Positions 19,609-60,674 of a stretch of 64,000 nt of DNA are shown here, piece by piece (the stretch's first letter is position 1; every line of letters starts with the position of its first letter). The position numbers were made by a program, and so were the translations under genes. Below the pieces are notes generated by a model. It had not been told where the DNA came from. It made no database searches and saw only the letters and a program-made list of their open reading frames with translations. The stretch is from Chondrosia reniformis (taxonomy: Eukaryota > Porifera > Demospongiae > Chondrillida > Chondrillidae), in assembly GCA_947172415.1 (NCBI GenBank), contig OX359191.1, forward strand, positions 2,356,001 to 2,420,000. The letters are read 5' to 3'.

Positions 19609-19690
19609 CTGTGGCAATTATAGTTCTGTGGCAGAGCACTGGTGGTTATAACCAGCTGCCCTGGGTTTGATTCCCAGCAATTGTTTCTCT
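19609..19690 (+). repeat. tRNA-derived SINE head
   Basis: The stretch has an A-box-like tagttctgtggcagagcact and a B-box-like gggtttgattcccagc at normal tRNA spacing, but no credible cloverleaf or mature 3' end. It is followed by a block (19710-19970) that also occurs at 3714-3950 and 48820-49040. Degenerate heads occur at 22005-22075 and, on the minus strand, near 53278-53345. I call it a SINE rather than a tRNA gene. Confidence 0.5.
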
Positions 19691-39051: not shown

Positions 39052-42000
39052 CTAAAAGGAAAAAATGTAACTCTACGTGCTGTGAGATAATTATTCTGTT
39101 TGAATCTGTTCTATTACATACACATATACATGTTAGTGCTTATGAAATCAGTAAAATATTATTAAGCTCATCGTCACTTACCGGCATTTCAATTAGTATG
39201 ATCTACTAGATATATTTATGTATGTAGCTGAACGTTGTCTCTACATTAAAAATAAGGTAATATAAATGTTGTAATGCCAACTACGTTGGGTAAGGATGTA
39301 CGTATATACTTGCAAAAGTACTCACGTAAACCTTTCTTTTAGTCAAGTCAAATTTAACCACAGGGGTACTACCCATCAGCGTGTTTGCTGGATTGACGTC
39401 ATTCTTTTAATAGAATGCTATATCCTGCCGGAAGAAGCTGATTACTTAATTCTGGCCTATAAACACTAAACCTTTGCAATAACAAGGTATTAACTCATAT
39501 ATCTCATGCAGGCAATCTTTTCACAGCAGCTGACCTTTAGGATGCATAAGGTTAACCCTCTCACTTGTTGGAATATGGCAGGTACTACAAGTGTTTTGTT
39601 TTTCAGCGATTAGGATATAATTGCATTTTGAGTGTATAAAATAGCTGGATCAGTGGCCTTTTCTACTTATCAAGTGTTATAAATACTTTTGGCACGGATT
39701 CTAGTTCTTACTGCATTTCAAGAAAGTATTTTAGTTAGCGTATATGTTGTATGTAAGCTAGGCCTAAAGAAATGAGTGTGTATATGTGTATTAAAGTAGC
39801 CAAGTCTTAGCCTTAAATCTCTCTTTTGTATCAAGGAATTTGATGAATTGACCTCAATCTAAAACAGATTCTGAGTGCTACTTGTTTGTGCTTATTTTGA
39901 TTTTCAAAGAATATAAATGTAGACTTTCATTGTGGTTATATATGAATGTTTAGCAGTGGCTTGTATAACTTACTTTTTAGTTCCACCAACCTCAGCTAAA
40001 TTTATCAGCCATTGTATAGATACTGTTCCTATCGTCAGAAAGCCTGTCCCCCCTGTCCCCCCTGTCCCTTCTACTGTAACACTATGTTGGTGATTGATCT
40101 TGCTGCTATGCTCAATAGCAAATCTCCTCATTCATTTGTAAGAGTAGATTTATATTCATTATTTTATGTTGTTAATGTACTATAGCACGTTAAGCAGGTG
40201 AATTCAGTTGACCAAATTCTTACAAGTTGAAATTCTAGAAGTCACATGTCACTATAAATTGTTTTTATAACCTCCTTAAGACTTAGTAGTATTAGCTGTA
40301 GTATACTGTACGTGAGATAGGGTAGTGCTATATCTACCAGCCTGACGGGTTTCTGTAAATTGTCATATTATAGATATAGATGATAACCAAACATTAATGG
40401 AATGTATTTGAATGGTTACCAATGATGTCAACAGAAATTCTACAGTTTGAGTATGCATTGCTGTCTGGTAAGCTGCAGAGAATGAACATGTAGCATTATA
40501 TTACTTGCTACATTTAATAGCAGTATAATTGTCATATTTTCTTTGGTAACATTTGTCAACCTTTTGGGCCATTTTTGATTTAAAGATACGTATGTATGTG
40601 TTTACTTTTTATAGTAATTCTCCATCCACCCCACTATTCATCAGCCTTAAGGGTTAGCATGCTTTGATTCCAACATATCTGGAGGCACTAACTGAGATGA
40701 TGTAATACCTTGTATCCTTACCACCCACATTCTAGGTCACACTTGGTTAATGGTAACCCTTATAAAATGTACATGGTAACTATAGTGACATAATACATTC
40801 ATAAAAGGGTCATACGTTTGTATACCTTTAGTATACTAATGTATAACACCTGTTGCTTTCTAGATGGGCTCAGTGAATGCCTACTGATTCTGACCTATTT
40901 GTGAATGTAGTGTATATAATCAGGTAGACAAGTACAGGGAAACTGGAGTATGACATGGTACATTTATATGTACATAGAAGAGTAACTGATATTAACTGAT
41001 GACACATTTAGTATCAATCAAACATGCAATTTTAACGTTTTAGTTCTTTTCTGTCACTAAAGGATATCTTGGATCAGATCCTGTCAGCATCCAAAAAATC
41101 TTTTTATCCTTTTCCAAAGTGAATCATTTTCTGATTTCGGATGATCATTATCAGGGTTATCCTATTGGGCAAATAGTAATATGCATATATAGACTTTTGT
41201 GATACCACACTCTATTTAGGTGAACTCCTATCAGTTCTCTCGCGCATTTAAAATATACATTTAAAACATATTGTATGTATATACAGTGGCTGTCATTAAT
41301 TGTTTCCAATCTTTATAGACCTGTAACAGTAAATATATATAAGCCTTCATTAGTATAAAAGTGATTTGATGAAACATTAGATGTGGATATAGGCACTTAA
41401 ACCTAAAAGTATTATACACAGATATACGTCATAAGATAATTTTTACTGATTGGTTAAGTAAGGCCACTCCATTAAAATTGTATTTCTACGCATAAATTTT
41501 CCAATCCAAATGATTTTTTACAGCTAAAATCCACAATAAATTGTCTGGTAGATTAGAGAGATTTATTCATTTGGCCTCTAAAGACTCAAACAAGTTTGGA
41601 GAGGAGCATTCTGGGTCTAAAATGTTTGCCGTAAATACCTAATTATGTATTTTATTTACTGATTATCATAAATAGCTATATAGATTAATTACATATGTTA
41701 CAGTATAGGTAAGCATTTCTTTAGTATTTGGCCTTTAGAGTACATAACATGTTAACCCTGTCACCTGCGTCAGGCACAACAAGTGCTGAGGTCTATGTGC
41801 ATATAGCTGCGTTCAGTTGTCTGCTGAGTGACAAGTGTACTACAGGTGCGCTCCCCATGTAGACTGCTAGATTTGTAATGCACCTAATTTGTACGTACAT
41901 ATGTCCTATTACATACATATTACATACACTCTTCATCCAAAGCTCTCTTCAGGTTTAGTTCCCCTATAGGCTCTTTTACAGAATAGGCATAGCATGTAGG

Positions 42001-42986
42001 AAAATGGTATCTTAGATTTTTCATATTGGTGGACACTGTAATTGTTTAGTTATCCGTAATTACCAGTTGGATAAGGTCTATTGTTTTACATGTAGTAATT
42101 AAGTTGTGCAATCAAACTAGTATTGGGTTAGGTAGTAAAAGGATTAAACTATCATAACTTTGATGAGTAGTGAAATCTAGAAAATATCTGTAAATGTAGA
42201 TATAACACTAATGAACTGTAAATGGAGGCACTAGCTGACTGACATTTAAAGACTGATACTGTAATAAAAGGATTACATTTTTCTCATGTCACTTACTCCC
42301 ATTTTGTAAAAAAGTCAAAATGATTTTTCACAGCACCTCTAAACTGGCTCTAAATGTACGTATAGAAATACTCAAGAAAGTACATATTAGGTAGTGTATA
42401 TGTTGTACGTAAGGCCTACTAATTGTTTTTCCCGAATTTTCAAAGGCCAAACTTTTAATCACTCTTTGGTACTAATACCGGTTTCCACAAGTTTCTTTCG
42501 TAGGAAAATAGTTACATATTCTGTTACCAGGCAACAATGCGTATGCAAACTGTATAGTTTCTACTGACGTCAATGGTAACCATGGTTAGTATGACTTGCT
42601 GTAATAACAACAGACTGAATGCCTATATCTTTAACCTTTCCTATATTTGTATTTATTCTGATTAGGAATTTATTAAAAATTATTAAAAAGTTAAATAAAC
42701 TTGCTAACCTAAATCTATGTTTTACTCTTAAGTTGTGTGCTTGAGGATTTATTATCTGAATATTTTCCAAGATAGTTACGGCAAGTTAGATTACTATACG
42801 CTGTACCATGTTTAACTTAATAGACTTTGATTGTCTGTAGATATAAATCTTACTATTGTGATCTTATATGTTAAAAGTTTTTATAAGCAACAGATTACAT
42901 ATGGATTGTTAAAGTGTCTCTATTACAGAAAGTAGTAGTTAAATTCCACACTTTAAGAGTGAAATGTGTTTGGCACTGTTTGCCCA
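39052..42986. other. Array spacer with partial repeats
   Basis: Holds incomplete repeats of the array: a donor-side block (gacctttag...ttaaccctctcac) near 39527 and 41729, and a block near 41824-41880 shared with units I-III. A 91-bp stretch (41934-42024) matches part of the last exon of the 58-kb phosphotransferase gene. A plus-strand frame after cttactttttag near 39980-40085 encodes a P-V-P-P-V-P-P-V-P run and stops at TGG-TGA; weak. No complete gene. Confidence 0.4.
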
Positions 42987-49935: not shown

Positions 49936-52565
49936 AAGCAAAAACTGCCACTAATTAACATATAATTACTTCAATATCCAGTATTCTCAGTGTATGATCC
50001 AAAAGCATTGCCTCGGTCCATTAACTGCAAGGTATAACTAATGAATAGTCTAACACACCATTTCCAACATGCTACGTCTGCTTTACAGTGAAGGTCTATA
50101 GGGAACTAAACCTAGTGAGAGCTTTGGCCGAGGATACAAGAGTTTCTCCTTCTCTACTAGACCAGACAGCTGTTTCTGAGAATTTCACCTTCATCAGTGA
50201 CCCTGAGAATCTCATGTTTCTCAGTTAGAGGGAATATTATAATACTTATATTAGTATGAACAGAAGAGGAGATCACGAATTGCATGATGCTACAACACCC
50301 CCAGTACGTTTTATTCGAATCCACTGCCAAAAAGTTTGAAGTCGCTACAATCACACAAAAGTCGCCAATGTCTCACGTTTCCTCTAGCGATAACTGTTGA
50401 ATTTCTAACATTCCAGTCGATTGGCCATGCGATTAGAGGCACACCTTTGAAAAAGAAGTTTAGTTACATGTGTCTGTACGCAGGTATTGAAAGACAGCGA
50501 TATTTTCTCGCGATGTGTAAAGAGCCCCTAGGCTAGAGCCTATGTATTAACGACTTTGCCTTTAAACCTAGCAAGAATATTTGGAACGCGGGGTAACTTG
50601 GAACAGATTTTTTAACTAGATCTCGCTGAACACGGGGTCTAGGTAGCATATTCTAGAAAAACGCTTGTCTTTAAATAGTCCGCACCAACAGCGCTCGTCC
50701 TGCTGTTAGAAGGTAAAGGTCAGTTTTGTTTCCAGTTACCCTGTCGTTCCAAATTACTAGAGATGACGGCAAGGGTATAAGGGCAAGGTACAATGTATGT
50801 TCCAGGCGTTGATTTACCTACGCTTGAAGTATCTAAATAGGCGATCGTAATCTGCCCGAAATTAGAGACCTGACCTACGGAATTTTAATCGCACCGCGTG
50901 ATGTTGCGGACTTATACTTAACTGGGAGTCCTGGAGTTAAGTCTCCTGTTGATACCCAAAGCTCTTTCTTGAAGAAATATACGTTATATCATCCTATATT
51001 AGCGTCATTTATATTCCATCGTATCGGCCCACTCAGTAACTTGGTTAGTTTTACCTCTACTGTTGTTCATCAAAACCACTGAATATCTTGTCACTTGGCT
51101 AGCCAAGCTCTAGACTGCCCGCATTAGCAAAAATGGTGCTAAAAGTCTCCCTTTGTGTGGTCTTAAGTTTGAATAGTTTATCAAAGGCAGCTAAGTGATT
51201 GCTGAACCCACCCAGGTGAAACACTTACATCTTGCGACATTTTCTTCACTATACAGTTGTGACTTACTAGTCTTTCAAGTGTCAATTTGTTATTTTCTTT
51301 TTGAAATCAGTATATTTCTTTCCCCTGGAACGGAAGTAAGTGACGTGTCCTAACGTCAGCTCTATTTATAACCCTTTAATACCCCATTGCAATTTAGCTG
51401 TATGCTAAGGGTTTAGAATGGATAGACTCCGAGTCGCCATCTGTTTATTTTAGGGAGGAGCCTATATCAGTATTAAATTTAAGTATGGATTACAGTTAGC
51501 TTCAGTGATATAGTGTACCATATAAAATGGTGCATTATTATATTGTAATGCACTATAGGGTCACTGGGAAGTACCAGATTAGAATTTATACATATACCTA
51601 TATAATACCATCATATACTTTACTTTCTGTACAGAATTATTGCCTTTTAAGGTTATAGCTTACTCGTAGAAGTGATATTCATGACTATCGGAACGCAGAA
51701 TTGTTTGTATTAGCATTGGACTATGAATTCACTTACTTTGAACTGGATAAACAGGGTCCTTTATGAGCTTCTTACACTACGCCAAGTTGTCTAGGATAGA
51801 GACCCAATGTGACGGTAACACCTTACTATTAGGCTGAGGTTAAAAAGAGGCCATTTCTTGAATTGATTTGTAATTTTACAATTAAGTGACTTCATTGTAA
51901 TGGATCAGTCACCTAATAGTGGGCTGGGCTATCTCCATGGTGGATGGAGGTCTTTGGATTTGTATGTATGTATGTAGTTTAAATCTAGTGTACATCATTG
52001 TATTCTAATCGTGGGATGGCTCATGTGTACATCATTGTATTGTTGTGCTAGCTAGCATTCTTGTATTTTCAAAGTAGATGGAAGTCACTTTTCTTTCTAG
52101 TACAATCTTTGCCATGTATATGAGTATGTATATGAGTATTATGCTTTCTGCTTTTACCTTTGCAGAGTTGCCTTCATATCAGACATCTCACCCAATAACA
52201 CATGGCTGTTCTGATGTGTATGACTGCTCTCGTGATAACAATGTGAATAGCCAGCTTTTTTTACACAATGCAAGATGCACAAATCACATTTATTTTGCAA
52301 GTTTTATTGTGTATTATACATACAAACACTTGCTCCGAAAATATACGAATATACATATGTACACCACTTCTTATCTTTGCATGGTTATAGCTTCTTCATA
52401 GAAACATTAAAACTATTAATCCACTTACTTTTAATGGCATAAATAGGGTCCTAATTGAGCTACATATGAGGTCACAAACATAAACGCACACACAATATAC
52501 AAAGGGTATAGTCAATAGTCATTCATTTTTCGGCGCACTTTTTCCATGAATCATCTTTTCACTCC
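49936..52565. other. Mostly unique spacer, no confident gene
   Basis: 50.3-51.4 kb is less AT-rich than its surroundings and free of recognised repeats, so it could be regulatory. The 52078-52401 plus frame begins in ATG/TAT repeats; its later part follows ttacctttgcag and might be a terminal exon (ELPSYQTSHPITHGCSDVYD), but nothing supports it further. Confidence 0.4.
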
Positions 52566-55519: not shown

Positions 55520-56716
55520 CATCATCATCATTCAATAATGGCAAAATCTCCTATGCAGGAGGTAGCCTGATATACATAGGGTTGTAGCATTGCGTGTCTA
55601 AAGCATTCATGTTCCTTAGTCAATATGTTAACTATAAATGAGTCATTTATTTAAAATTATCTGTCCACCGCTTCTTTGGTCTTCCTCTAGGTCTCTTCCC
55701 TGTCATTTCTTCTTCCTACACTTGCTTCACCAATCGGTCTGTATTCATTTCCTCCATCTTCACCTTCCAACTTCTTTGGTTCTCCTTCACCATATCTACT
55801 ACTGCTTCCTGTCCAAGTGATCTCCTCACATCTTCATTTCTAACGCTGTCCAGCCTTGACACACCTTCCACTCTCCTTAAAAACATCATTTCAGATGCCT
55901 GTAACTTGCTTTCATGTCTTCTCTGCATGGTCCAGGTCTCGCAGCCATAGATGAGGGTAGGCACCACCATTGCATTGAATACCCTCAACTTAGTTTTCTT
56001 CAGTAACTCTCTTCTTTCAAGCACCTCCTTCCTCATAGCACCTACCACCTTTGCTGCTGCCCCCACGCGCTGTTCAATTTCTTCATCACATAACCCATCT
56101 GAACTGACCATTACTCCTAGGTACTTCAGCTTCTTGACAGTTTCAATGTCTTCACCTTCTATGTTCAGGTTACAATCCTCTTCTGTCCTACTCACCATCA
56201 TCACCTTTGTCTTCCCCAGGTGCATCTTCATTCCCCACTTATCCATCACTTTCTTCATCTCACCCAAGTTTGTCTGCATATCTTCCTCCTTCTCCGTCAC
56301 CATCACTATATCATCCGCAAAAAGTATCAGCTGCACGTTGGTAGTTGTTAGCTGAACCCCACCCTGTAACTTCTCCATTGTTTCTCTCCTTATTCCATCC
56401 ATAAACACATTAAACAGCCATGGCGACATCACACACCCCTGCCTCACTCCTTGGGTAATGGGGAACCACCCAGACACTTTCCCACTAGTACGCACACATG
56501 CTTGGCTCCCTAGGTACATGGACTGAATGGCTCTCAATAGGCCTCCCTGAATTCCATAACTTTCCAGCACCTGCCATAGCCTATCTCTACTGACCTTATC
56601 ATATGCCTTCTCCAGATCTATGCACGCTATTACCATCTGCTTGTTCTTCTCCAACACTTTCTCACTTAGCTGCCTAATTGTAAAGATCTGATCTCCACAA
56701 CCTCTTCCTCGCCTAA
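55520..56716 (-). mobile_element. 5'-truncated RTE-like LINE with 17-bp target duplication
   Basis: Flanked by aaccaccttaatatcat at 55503-55519 and 56717-56733. An (ATC)n tract at the left is the 3' tail on the minus strand. The minus frame (56657-55716, extendable upstream to about 56716) encodes RT with IDLEKAYDKVSRDRLW, GVRQGCVMSPWLFNVFMD, LILFADDIVMVTEKEED and a C-terminal region (LIYGCETWTM). It is the same family as 28717-30884, with which it also shares the 3' block ctcctatgcaggaggtagcc. The element is truncated just before RT motif 2, so it is not autonomous, but the remaining frame is intact for over 310 codons, so it is fairly young. Confidence 0.9.
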
Positions 56717-57031
56717 AACCACCTTAATATCATTATTTAATTATTTCATAACACAAAACCAGGTCACTTTAACACAATCCATTATGTACATACATTCTTT
56801 CAACATTTTTGAGTTTACAAATACGTATTTCTTCATACTTTCAAAAGTCTACATCAAATATATGACCTTCTGATATAATATACACAGCAAGATAGCTACC
56901 AATGGTATGAATGTCTGTATAGTACTACAGTTTGAGAAGGTCCTTTGGTGGGTGATTCAAATGTGGTTGTAGTAACATGCTCAGAACAGATGTTGCCATA
57001 AAGCTATTGTAAGTGAACATGGGGGGGTGGT

Positions 57032-57112: not shown

Positions 57113-57172
57113 GGAATGCAAAGTTTCATGGTATCTATAGAACTGAAACAGTATAACTAGATCAATATTACC

Positions 57173-57564
57173 TGTTATACAGTACAACATACCCCAATCC
57201 TGTTGTACAGTACAACATACCCCAAGCCTGTTGTACAGTACAACATACCCCAATCCTGTTGTACAGTACAACATACCCCAATCCTGTTGTACAGTACAAC
57301 ATACCCCAATCCTGTTATACAGTACAACATACCCCAATCCTGTTGTACAGTACAACATACCCCAATCCTGTTGTACAGTACAACATACCCCAATCCTGTT
57401 GTACAGTACAACATACCCCAATCCTGTTGTACAGTACAACATACCCCAATCCTGTTGTACAGTACAACATACCCCAATCCTGTTGTACAGTACAACATAC
57501 CCCAATCCTGTTATACAGTACAACATACCCCAATCCTGTTATACAGTACAACATACCCCAATCC
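57173..57564. repeat. 28-bp minisatellite, 14 units
   Basis: Exactly 392 bp, with unit tgttgtacagtacaacatac followed by cccaatcc. Units differ almost only at one position (tgttgt or tgttat). The unit contains the palindrome tgttgtacagtacaaca (near). Because 28 is not a multiple of 3 and the unit lacks stops, several frames on both strands stay open; these are artefacts of the repeat. Confidence 0.97.
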
Positions 57565-57938
57565 GAAAATGTATTGATTTTAGAGGATAAAAGATTCAAT
57601 TAATAAATTGTACAATAACCATCTGAATCTAAGGAGATGTCTGGCCATGATAGATGTAGTAGCTAATATATAAAATTTGCAATGAACAGCATAAAATACG
57701 TATGTGTAGGTATTCAACTAATTACGACTTACTGGACCTACATACCTCAACATGGCAAATGCATATGTACATATGTACATACATACCTACATAGCATGTA
57801 TACGTACATGCATCTAAAGTCACACTAATTCGGTAAATGTAATATACGTACTTTCATATGTACACTTGCCTGACTAACTACGTAATTAACATACAGGATT
57901 CACAGAAGATCAAGATAAAGAAAAGACAAAGACTCCCA

Positions 57939-57984
57939 GGATCACTGATGAAGGGTGGAATTCCCAGAAACGGCTGTCTGACCC
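57939..57984 (+). ncRNA. Hammerhead-ribozyme-like motif, near-complete
   Basis: Order: helix I 5' strand GGATCA (57939-57944); CTGATGA (57945-57951); A; helix II GGG (57953-57955), 7-nt loop, CCC (57963-57965); A; GAAA (57967-57970); helix III AC, loop GGCT, GT (57971-57977, partly sharing the core); C at 57978, the expected cleavage position; helix I 3' strand TGACCC (57979-57984), pairing at five of six positions. This is the type I layout. The deviation is an A-A pair where the first helix II pair is usually G-C. It overlaps, antisense, the final codons of the phosphotransferase gene (stop at 57942). Confidence 0.6.
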
Positions 57985-60674
57985 AGTGGAGAAGAAGATG
58001 AAAGAAGGGAAAAGAAGGAAGAAAGGACTCCTGTATCCTCATCCAAAGCTCTCTTCAGGTTTAGTTTCCCTATAGGCTCTTTTACAGAATAGGCATATAG
58101 CATGTAGGAAAATGGTATCTTAGATTTTTCATGGAGTGTGTGTGGATTATTTACATAAGCCAATACTAAAGAGGAACAAAGTTTTAGCAGAATGAAACTC
58201 ACCGACACTATGAAAAAAGCTACTCCATCGTTTAAAATCTTTCCAAAATGATTATTAACAAGAAGAGCAAGAGGCCCAATCATAATCCAGTCTACCATTG
58301 ACAGAGGACTCCTAGTCATGTGAGCAACCTACAGTATATAGGAAAATTATAGCAAACCTGTTATCCAAGTATGAAACTCCCATATTACAACTTAAGGTAT
58401 ATTTTTATTTTAAAATTTGTAACATTTGATCTTTAAAATATACATACAGTACGTAGTAAGTACTTTGAAATTTGACTATAGGAAACATAGAATAGACGTT
58501 GCTAATATACGTATACGTATACATGACCTGGAACAAGGTTTGAAATTCTGACCAAAATTACATGCTTACACAGCTTCTTACCACAATCATCCAACTCAGT
58601 TTGACCAATGGCAGGGCTAATACAAACATGACTATTGCTGTCCAATTCAAGTAAAATTCTTCAGAATGCTTCATATAGGTCCAGCTTAGAAAAAGTATAA
58701 TAGCAAGAGGTACAGAAGGAGCAAGAATGCTTGAATCAGCAATAGTTGAACCAGCCTTGCCTTTCCCTCCTGTAAAAATAGCTACCAAATCTAGAATAAT
58801 TGTAGTTCCACAAATTAAAAACATTACAATAATGACATATAGCCGTAATTCAATGCCAAAAAGATGCCATGACCAAAATTGCACTCCCAAGGAAAAGCTG
58901 ATCAGATGAATTACAACAATAAATACTTGTGCTTCCGTCACATCCAACCTAAAAAGGAATATGAATTTGCTGCAAAGATATTCTGTTGCTCTATCCTTAA
59001 AACAACTTGATAGACTTGGTATGTATATGTACAGTACATGTGTATGTACATATCTGTTATAAAGTTATAGCTTACTTACATTCTGAAAGTCATATTACCA
59101 CAGACATAGGACTGCCAGTGACCACAATAATAAAGAACCGAACCAATGAGAACCCAAGAAAAAAATATCAAACGGTAGTTTCCTAACCTGGAGCAAGGAA
59201 CAAAAATAGAAAATATTATGAAAACTTTCCAAAGTCCAAATACTGTCTCGTGTATGTAGGCACTGTAAATGTGGAAGGATATTGATTATACAGTTGCAGC
59301 ATCCACATGTGTATATACGTATGACATGTGTACATTAATAAGGGCCCAGTTTCCTTCACTGAATACAAACATTTTGTCACCTCAACTATTGAGCTGATTG
59401 CTGCCAATGCACATTCTCAACTAGACCTACCCTGCTGCCATAAGGGTGCCTTCAGCACAGCATACTATACTAACGGCATCACATCCATGATCAAACATTT
59501 CACCAAGTGGAGTAGCTGTGTTTGTACGCCTTGCCTGTTTTCCATCTATTGCATCCAGCTGCTGGTATATAAACAGTGCTACACCAAACAATAGGTAGCA
59601 CCACTGTGGAGCCTAAGTAGATGAAATAACAGTCTGGAATAAAAAGCAAGTAAAATGTAAGGTAAGTTGCCAAGAACTGAAAGCGAGTGCTAAACAAATA
59701 ATACCATTATCATGATAAGCAAAAATAATCACTGGAAAGTATTACGCCAAACCAGCCAAGTGACCAAAGTGTAATCTTGGCTGGGGGACCAAAGTCCTAT
59801 TAAATTGGTGACCAGTGATCACCTCCCAGTCATCCAAGATAGAAAAAATTCATCAAAGATCCACAGAGAGCTGTTTCGCCCTCATTTGGGTTCATCAGTG
59901 TGGTACACTTCAATGATGGTGAGTTTGGATGACTGCCTTCACTTATAAATCAGTGATCCCAGTTTCCAGTGATTACTCTGCTAATTATAGCCTTTGCATG
60001 GCTCGGTGCAATTAACTCCTTTTCTATTCAAAATACCATCATCACTTGGTGAAATTCACTACATAAGTGTAGTCATAAGAAATATGTATGAGCCAAATAA
60101 CTACATTAAACATCTAATTGTGTGTACTTCACTATATTTACCACTACCATGACTATCATGGTTATTAACTATCAAAGCTTCTAGTCTAAAAATAATAACA
60201 TTCAAACATTCAAATTAGAATAGCCTCCATAATCACGTAAAAAGGGAGAAGATTACAACAATAAACAGCAGCAGATTAAGGGAGTGCTTTAGTGAGCTGA
60301 GATATCCCCCTCTGGTTTTAGTATGTATTAGCTATATATTAAATATTGGGCAAAATAGCCAGACCGCCTTTTACCATTTCTATGTCACACTCCTACGTAT
60401 ATAACAAATATAACATGGTGCCCCCTTACAGATAAACCATACTCACGTATCCCTTTCCAGTAGGATCAAAATAAATCAAGAGAAGGGTCGCAAAAACATT
60501 AATCACAAGTCCAACAAATGTTATTAAATTAGGAGCCATCCACAGTGGTATTTTAGTAACCAGCCATTTCCAGAAAGGCTGAAAAAAAACTTCTAAAAGT
60601 GAGCTTCCGCAACTGGAATACTTGTGTTCCTTTAGACGTAGTAGCTGCTGATGTGTTAGCACTTCTCCCAACAT
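57942..60674 (-). CDS. Choline/ethanolamine phosphotransferase (CEPT1/CHPT1-like), five exons
   Basis: Makes phosphatidylcholine and/or phosphatidylethanolamine by moving the phospho-base from its CDP carrier to diacylglycerol in ER/Golgi membranes (Kennedy pathway, last step). Exons: 60674-60447, 59612-59431, 59187-59080, 58948-58582 and 58328-57942, 1272 nt, 423 residues, all junctions in frame. Exon 1 has [12 protein letters not shown] and [13 protein letters not shown], typical of the family N-terminus. Exon 2 has the complete CDP-alcohol phosphotransferase motif D-G-x2-A-R-x8-G-x3-D-x3-D (D99, G100, A103, R104, G113, D117, D121). Exon 3 has [12 protein letters not shown], exon 4 DVTEAQVFI and [12 protein letters not shown], exon 5 VAHMTRSP. 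Several hydrophobic helices are present. A 5' UTR intron is likely (acceptor ttcttcctag at about 60685). The last 30 or so residues read through a hammerhead-like motif and may not be ancestral. Substrate preference cannot be told. Confidence 0.93.
59861..59903 (-). ncRNA. Hammerhead-like motif inside an intron
   Basis: On the minus strand: CCACA (helix I 5'), CTGATGA (59898-59892), A, CCC, loop AAATGA, GGG, C, GAAA (59877-59874), CAGCTCTC, TGTGG (helix I 3', 59865-59861, five perfect pairs). Helix III would normally be AC-loop-GT; here the second strand reads CT, so helix III is weakened by one change. It lies in intron 1 of the phosphotransferase gene, on the same strand as the transcript. 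Confidence 0.5.

Follow-up and report, generated by a model that had tools for sequence, protein, structure and literature searches.

Metazoan non-LTR retrozymes, as described in excerpts of PMC7229834, are short non-coding elements carrying a type I hammerhead ribozyme with a short helix III and a palindromic arm, a description that also fits the sponge repeat reported here; the retrozymes differ in forming tandem units with circular RNA cut to unit length, whereas the sponge repeat has fixed ends and an internal ribozyme. The same excerpts (PMC7229834) describe the axolotl hammerhead HHR_Amex2, in which, as in the sponge repeat, helix II has a mismatch at its base, here U-U; it nevertheless retains activity, a monomer cleaving 22% in an hour and a dimer more. 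Excerpts of PMC7761336 present the minimal type I hammerheads of Penelope-like elements as dispersed, reduced motifs with a proposed dimer action, which is again similar, although the sponge repeat possesses a helix III and neither a Penelope enzyme nor a pseudo-LTR was found for it in the window. The HDV-like ribozymes at the 5' ends of R2 and other LINEs, treated in the same excerpts (PMC7761336), offer a further parallel in that the 5' end of a retroelement transcript is there fixed by self-cleavage. Within the sponge genome, the canonical hammerheads (loci L029-L048 and L079-L087) share CTGATGA, GAAACAGCTGTC and a 6-bp helix I with the repeat and differ in that their helix II has 4 bp with a G-C pair at the bottom, and in having different loops and flanking sequence. 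An HDV-like ribozyme remains with the 3' product, whereas the predicted cut in the sponge repeat leaves the ribozyme behind, so that an inserted product cannot cut again. In 1998 Ferbeyre reportedly described a SINE-like satellite of schistosomes with hammerheads, likewise a SINE-like carrier of a type I hammerhead. No paper on hammerheads in sponges was found in the literature searched, most subscription journals lying outside that search.

The window, meaning the whole stretch of DNA analysed, comprises 64,000 nucleotides of Chondrosia reniformis (contig OX359191.1, positions 2,356,001 to 2,420,000). An original prediction made from its letters had proposed a near-complete hammerhead at the 3' end of a phospholipid-synthesis gene, and the letters agree with the anatomy it gave for helix I (5 of 6 pairs), helix II, helix III and C57978. 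It had missed that the motif is part of a high-copy dispersed repeat of about 235-245 bp, and also that stem I continues outwards past an internal loop. The features of this repeat copy are as follows.

57895-58129 (+): repeat copy of a young, SINE-like subfamily, with ends placed from 20 fetched copies and the window letters
57939-57984 (+): divergent type I hammerhead, from sequence, a descriptor and model R1 (see below; 20.5 bits, E 0.0015)
57945-57951 and 57967-57970 (+): hammerhead core, CTGATGA and GAAA, from the sequence
57939-57944/57979-57984 (+): helix I, 5 of 6 pairs in the window copy
57953-57955/57963-57965 (+): helix II, GGG/CCC above A57952-A57966, from the sequence
57970-57971/57976-57977 (+): helix III, AC/GT around GGCT, from the sequence
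57933-57936/57988-57991 (+): outer part of stem I, CTCC with GGAG beyond an internal loop CA/AGT, from the letters and the predicted fold of the old consensus
between C57978 and T57979 (+): predicted scissile phosphate, old consensus positions 83/84, from the hammerhead anatomy and a pile-up of 5' ends of truncated copies at other places in the genome

Over its 46 nt the window copy reads GGATCA-CTGATGA-A-GGG-TGGAATT-CCC-A-GAAA-C-GGCT-GT-C-TGACCC, and the core CUGANGA...GAAA...UH is present in full (57945-57951, 57967-57970, T57977 and C57978), C57978 being hammerhead position C17. Helix I opens outwards and forms all 6 pairs in the old consensus, one of them T-G. Where type I hammerheads have a base pair at the bottom of helix II, the pair numbered 10.1-11.1, the window copy and both subfamily consensuses have A-A; this apposition, which the original prediction had called a flaw, is thus not damage to this one copy. 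A descriptor of the motif anatomy found a single match in the window, both strands searched, and one in 150 dinucleotide shuffles (0.007 per shuffle), which scales, roughly and from that one shuffle match, to about a dozen chance matches over 117 Mb, so that the anatomy alone is not decisive genome-wide. For the window copy the most stable predicted structure is one other than the hammerhead (−14.4 vs −3.7 kcal/mol for the hammerhead pairs), while the old consensus is predicted to fold with the topology of canonical hammerhead family B. The 8-nt arm of helix III is self-complementary (ACAGCUGU; in the young form ACGGCUGU, with two G-U pairs), which would allow dimers, and the ribozyme may therefore also act in that form.

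The repeat is abundant in the searched genome (117,379,552 bases, 15 contigs): with 57880-58060 as query, the best 40 of 1330 first-look candidates score 97-100% identity, and an older copy used as query gave 3522 first-look candidates, of which the best 40 were scored. Two subfamilies were distinguished, with consensus sizes of 242 nt (young) and 223 nt (old); the hammerhead starts 45-50 nt from the 5' end, and some copies carry a 5' extension beyond the usual end. Short, dispersed and 5'-truncated copies, as expected of a SINE, are found, and at the window copy Rfam returned no tRNA-, 7SL- or 5S-derived head at gathering. The window copy is flanked by CAT at 57890-57892 and CAT at 58130-58132, and among 18 copies only, target-site duplications average 2.9 nt vs 2.4 nt in shuffles, 91 of 2000 shuffles being equally high. 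Three copies lie in the window, the two others being a young, 5'-truncated one at 41930-42023 (+) and an older, divergent one at 50042-50218 (−), in which the hammerhead is still recognisable at 22.3 bits. Elsewhere in the window, 19614-19685 (+) gives an Rfam tRNA match of 35.3 bits at which ARAGORN makes no call, and similar words in the flanks of loci L024 and L148 suggest a tRNA-derived SINE.

Both subfamilies carry the hammerhead anatomy. The old consensus reads GGGTCA-CTGATGA-A-GGG-TGGAATT-CCC-A-GAAA-C-AGCT-GT-C-TGGCCC; its helix III, ACAGCTGT, is that of canonical hammerheads, and it contains GAAACAGCTGTC together with the A-A. The young form is identical to the window copy over the 46 nt and differs from the old one by three changes, namely T-G to T-A, a broken G-C pair, which leaves an A-C mismatch in helix I, and an altered helix III loop. 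Purifying constraint on the motif was considered and rejected as support: these three changes in 46 nt give a Fisher p of 0.42 on substitutions, and 0.02 only when gap columns are counted, other 46-column stretches of the repeat are equally conserved between the consensuses, and the 94.9% of positions intact within the motif in old copies (n = 51) compare with 90.9% outside it, or 92.3% once variable stretches are removed.

The covariance-model check proposed with the original prediction gave a divided answer, negative with Rfam and positive with a model drawn from the sponge's own hammerheads. Rfam reports no hammerhead at gathering in the window, and even with E values up to 10 it finds none in the window copy or in an old copy. 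In the genome, RF00163 yields 73 scored matches, 51 of them over the cut-off and the best at 43.1 bits, and all 20 fetched Rfam-positive loci contain GAAACAGCTGTC. These loci and ten further places can be sorted into two or more families whose helices I and II show paired changes, and they sit in retrozyme-like units, often 352-363 bp apart in tandem. Model R1, built from 13 canonical type I hammerheads of this genome and run unfiltered on the window, placed the motif at 57939-57984 third (20.5 bits, E 0.0015), behind a decayed retrozyme-like copy at 59860-59904 (−) with 49.7 bits and the older repeat copy at 50042-50218 (−) with 22.3 bits; the fourth match scored 10.8 bits. In 7 of the 17 loci searched, R1 scored older repeat copies at 27.5 bits, the highest value reached by such copies. 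The motif is thus kin to the canonical hammerheads, a kinship that rests on the core, helix III and part of helix I because the R1 alignment to the repeat hammerheads skips helix II. The first-ranked copy, 59860-59904 (−), lies inside the same gene as the repeat, on the gene's own strand, and has a mismatch in helix III and an A at the helix II base.

A pattern CTGATGA-N8..30-GAAACRGCTGTC matched the genome exactly 2053 times and its reversed version 0 times; the canonical version, narrowed to G and C at the helix II base, matched 220 times. In an ordinary repeat that never carried a ribozyme the likeness could have arisen by chance, a dozen or so matches being expected of so loose a descriptor, yet we find this barely credible in view of the identity of GAAACAGCTGTC with that of the genome's canonical hammerheads, the complete helix I of the old consensus and the surplus of 5' ends, reported below, at the predicted cut.

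The prediction's proposed carrier, a Penelope-like element or a retrozyme, was not borne out. The genome's canonical retrozyme-like families align to the repeat over 14 nt only (E 0.70), and a retrozyme was rejected as carrier; among the 100 places listed of the 2053 pattern matches, no same-strand tandem hammerhead pair within 300 bp was found. No reverse transcriptase joined to the repeat was seen in the window, and the nearby RVT_1 reading frame is unjoined to all three copies. This frame, at 55719-56723 (−), encodes a reverse transcriptase (Pfam RVT_1, E 9.7e-34) and lies downstream of the repeat. A tandem minisatellite, seen in six-frame translation, lies beside the repeat copy at 57161-57574.

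That a hammerhead-bearing mobile repeat had landed at the 3' end of a CEPT-like gene was upheld by the repeat copies and by the protein matches of the gene, which contributes two further features.

58133-58316 (−): CEPT/CHPT-like exon with the repeat inserted at its downstream end, from phmmer, frames and letters
57945-58129 (−): 62 predicted residues antisense to the repeat, from translation

The exon matches PDB cholinephosphotransferase 1 in phmmer (E 1.1e-9), and an upstream exon has a match to Pfam CDP-OH_P_transf. Homology to solved relatives extends as far as LCSSLVLA, 9 residues short of the insertion, and the minus-strand frame runs to a stop codon at 57942-57944, which falls within helix I. 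The motif is accordingly antisense to the last codons, as had been proposed, but over a predicted tail of 62 residues and not about 30. If the repeat is taken out and a single CAT left, the frame would end after 21 other residues, and after 5 with another junction. GTGAGT at 58197-58202 could be a splice donor that would splice the antisense tail away. The CEPT-like mRNA would be antisense to the ribozyme and so is not acted on by it, which makes the link with the gene incidental.

If an RNA of the element were cut after C17 and its 3' product inserted, truncated copies should begin at the next base, old position 84. Such starts were first glimpsed in bystander copies contained in 289.5 kb of fetched loci, where 33 truncated rows, less 2 cut by locus ends and with the near-identical L092, L097, L099 and L102 counted once, left 28 truncated copies. 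The aligner placed 12 of their starts at 14-39, 0 at 40-74, 8 at 75-89 and 8 at 98-169. A hand count assigned 6 of the 28 to 84/85 (binomial 9.5e-7), a figure that we do not rely upon; for these six the aligner gave 75, 83, 84, 85, 88 and 89. The position examined in the following genome-wide count was named by the hammerhead anatomy, yet the count itself was prompted by this earlier glimpse.

Genome-wide, 5' ends were counted by sequence patterns at five places, a hit being a copy whose three letters upstream all differ from the repeat; random flanks survive this filter in about 42% of cases at positions 84, 68 and 90 and in about 28% of cases at positions 78 and 129, the downstream words are of unequal length (14-17 nt), and exact-word searches undercount old copies. 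The predicted cut, position 84, gave 105 matches, compared with 8 at position 78 (six nt upstream), 17 at 68, 17 at 129 and 22 at 90 (six nt downstream; 2 for the reversed pattern of position 90). Flanks were read for 80 of the 105. Upstream sequence unrelated to the repeat was found in 57, of which 53 are distinct (33 old-type, 20 young-type with TGACCC), L111 being kept among the 57 though 13 nt from the 5' end of the repeat survive in it. The other 23 are repeat-like upstream, defined as a local score over 32 and excluded from the 57, and include rearrangements joining at 84 (L120, L122, L177). The remaining 25 matches (8 in an array at C2:756964-757401, 11 in a cluster at C2:2531365-3557102, 1 on C8 and 5 others) were left out, and because they are largely not independent we do not extrapolate from 80 to 105. 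In the C2:756964-757401 array the eight cut-site pattern matches stand at multiples of about 25 bp, and a truncated repeat copy may there have turned into a minisatellite.

The controls were judged by a more lenient rule, under which every match with unrelated upstream sequence counts, whether or not it is the repeat. Under this rule unrelated flanks number 6 of 8 at position 78, 6 of 12 (of 17 matches) at 68, 19 of 20 (of 22) at 90 and 11 of 17 at 129; about half of the position-90 set is truly repeat when judged by eye, and some control matches resemble starts at 84/85 (L159 and L161 at position 90; L193, L194, L198 and L201 at 129). Copies starting at the predicted cut are in excess over these lenient controls by about 2.5- to 6-fold after correction for the filter, the lower value being that against position 90. 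This excess suggests, from the genomic copies themselves, that the RNA is really cut in the living animal.

A transcription start from which shorter RNAs were made and inserted, the hammerhead likeness at that point being coincidental or unused, would likewise yield copies beginning at one fixed base. However, the base was named from the anatomy before the 5' ends were mapped, a coincidence of about 1 in 160, and we regard such a start as very unlikely. The junctions themselves raise another explanation without cleavage, in which the hammerhead fold halts reverse transcriptase or CATG microhomology places the 5' junctions. In its favour, CAT is the common flank of the repeat, and in 27 of the 53 distinct flanks CA stands immediately in front of TG; the start of these 27 copies is uncertain by 1-2 nt because a CA flank plus TG makes CATG. 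Six of the 53 have CAT immediately in front of T84. Nevertheless, a reverse transcriptase stop would be expected on entering stem I from the 3' side, where position 90 has only 22 matches, many of them non-repeat. Position 78, where four of the six unrelated flanks are CAT before G, has only 8 matches, and TG sites at 51, 54, 61, 80, 92 and 125 are without starts in the bystander set. On this evidence we consider both forms of the explanation highly improbable.

Perhaps the ribozyme worked only in the past: a good ancestral hammerhead would have been killed by the A-A apposition and the helix I change, with the truncations at the cut site descending from older, active versions. The A-A at the helix II base, the A-C mismatch of the young helix I, the silence of Rfam on the window copy and the old copy and the unfavourable hammerhead fold of the window copy are all in keeping with such a relict. 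However, the A-A is already present in the old consensus, and the 20 young-type copies among the 53 imply that cutting would have gone on with the A-A in place; we therefore think a relict unlikely.

The best explanation is probably a short, non-autonomous, SINE-like retroelement whose hammerhead is attenuated but still works. In the proposed sequence of events, the element RNA would fold as a hammerhead, with a stem I containing an internal loop, helix II above the A-A and a 2-bp helix III, and a minority of the RNAs would be cut after C57978. Uncut RNA would give rise to full-length insertions, while the cut 3' product, devoid of the ribozyme, would sometimes be reverse transcribed and inserted, producing copies that start at the scissile phosphate. 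A hammerhead cutting a minority of RNAs accounts for the anatomy, for the fact that both subfamilies share it and for the 5'-end excess, and the original suggestion that a plus-strand transcript could self-cleave is supported as a possibility for this predicted ribozyme. We infer self-cleavage as the cause of the excess, as we do dimer action and the retrotransposition of the repeat. As a very rough estimate, one insertion in fifteen would come from cut RNA (53 copies over the 42% pass rate, against 1883 copies in the genome whose helix II word is intact).

It is difficult to measure how frequently genomic hammerheads cut in vivo in animals. If the proposed explanation is true, insertions that begin at the scissile phosphate would document in vivo cleavage through sequence alone, the same readout would be usable for any ribozyme inside a retroelement, and a hammerhead unreported by Rfam would prove able to be active. 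For the sponge, we tentatively propose, as an idea that could well prove wrong, that a SINE keeps an attenuated hammerhead, whose cutting of only a minority of the transcripts yields a second, ribozyme-free mobile RNA; the genome would then record the ribozyme's in vivo activity, and the mismatch at the helix II base would be tolerated or even favoured.
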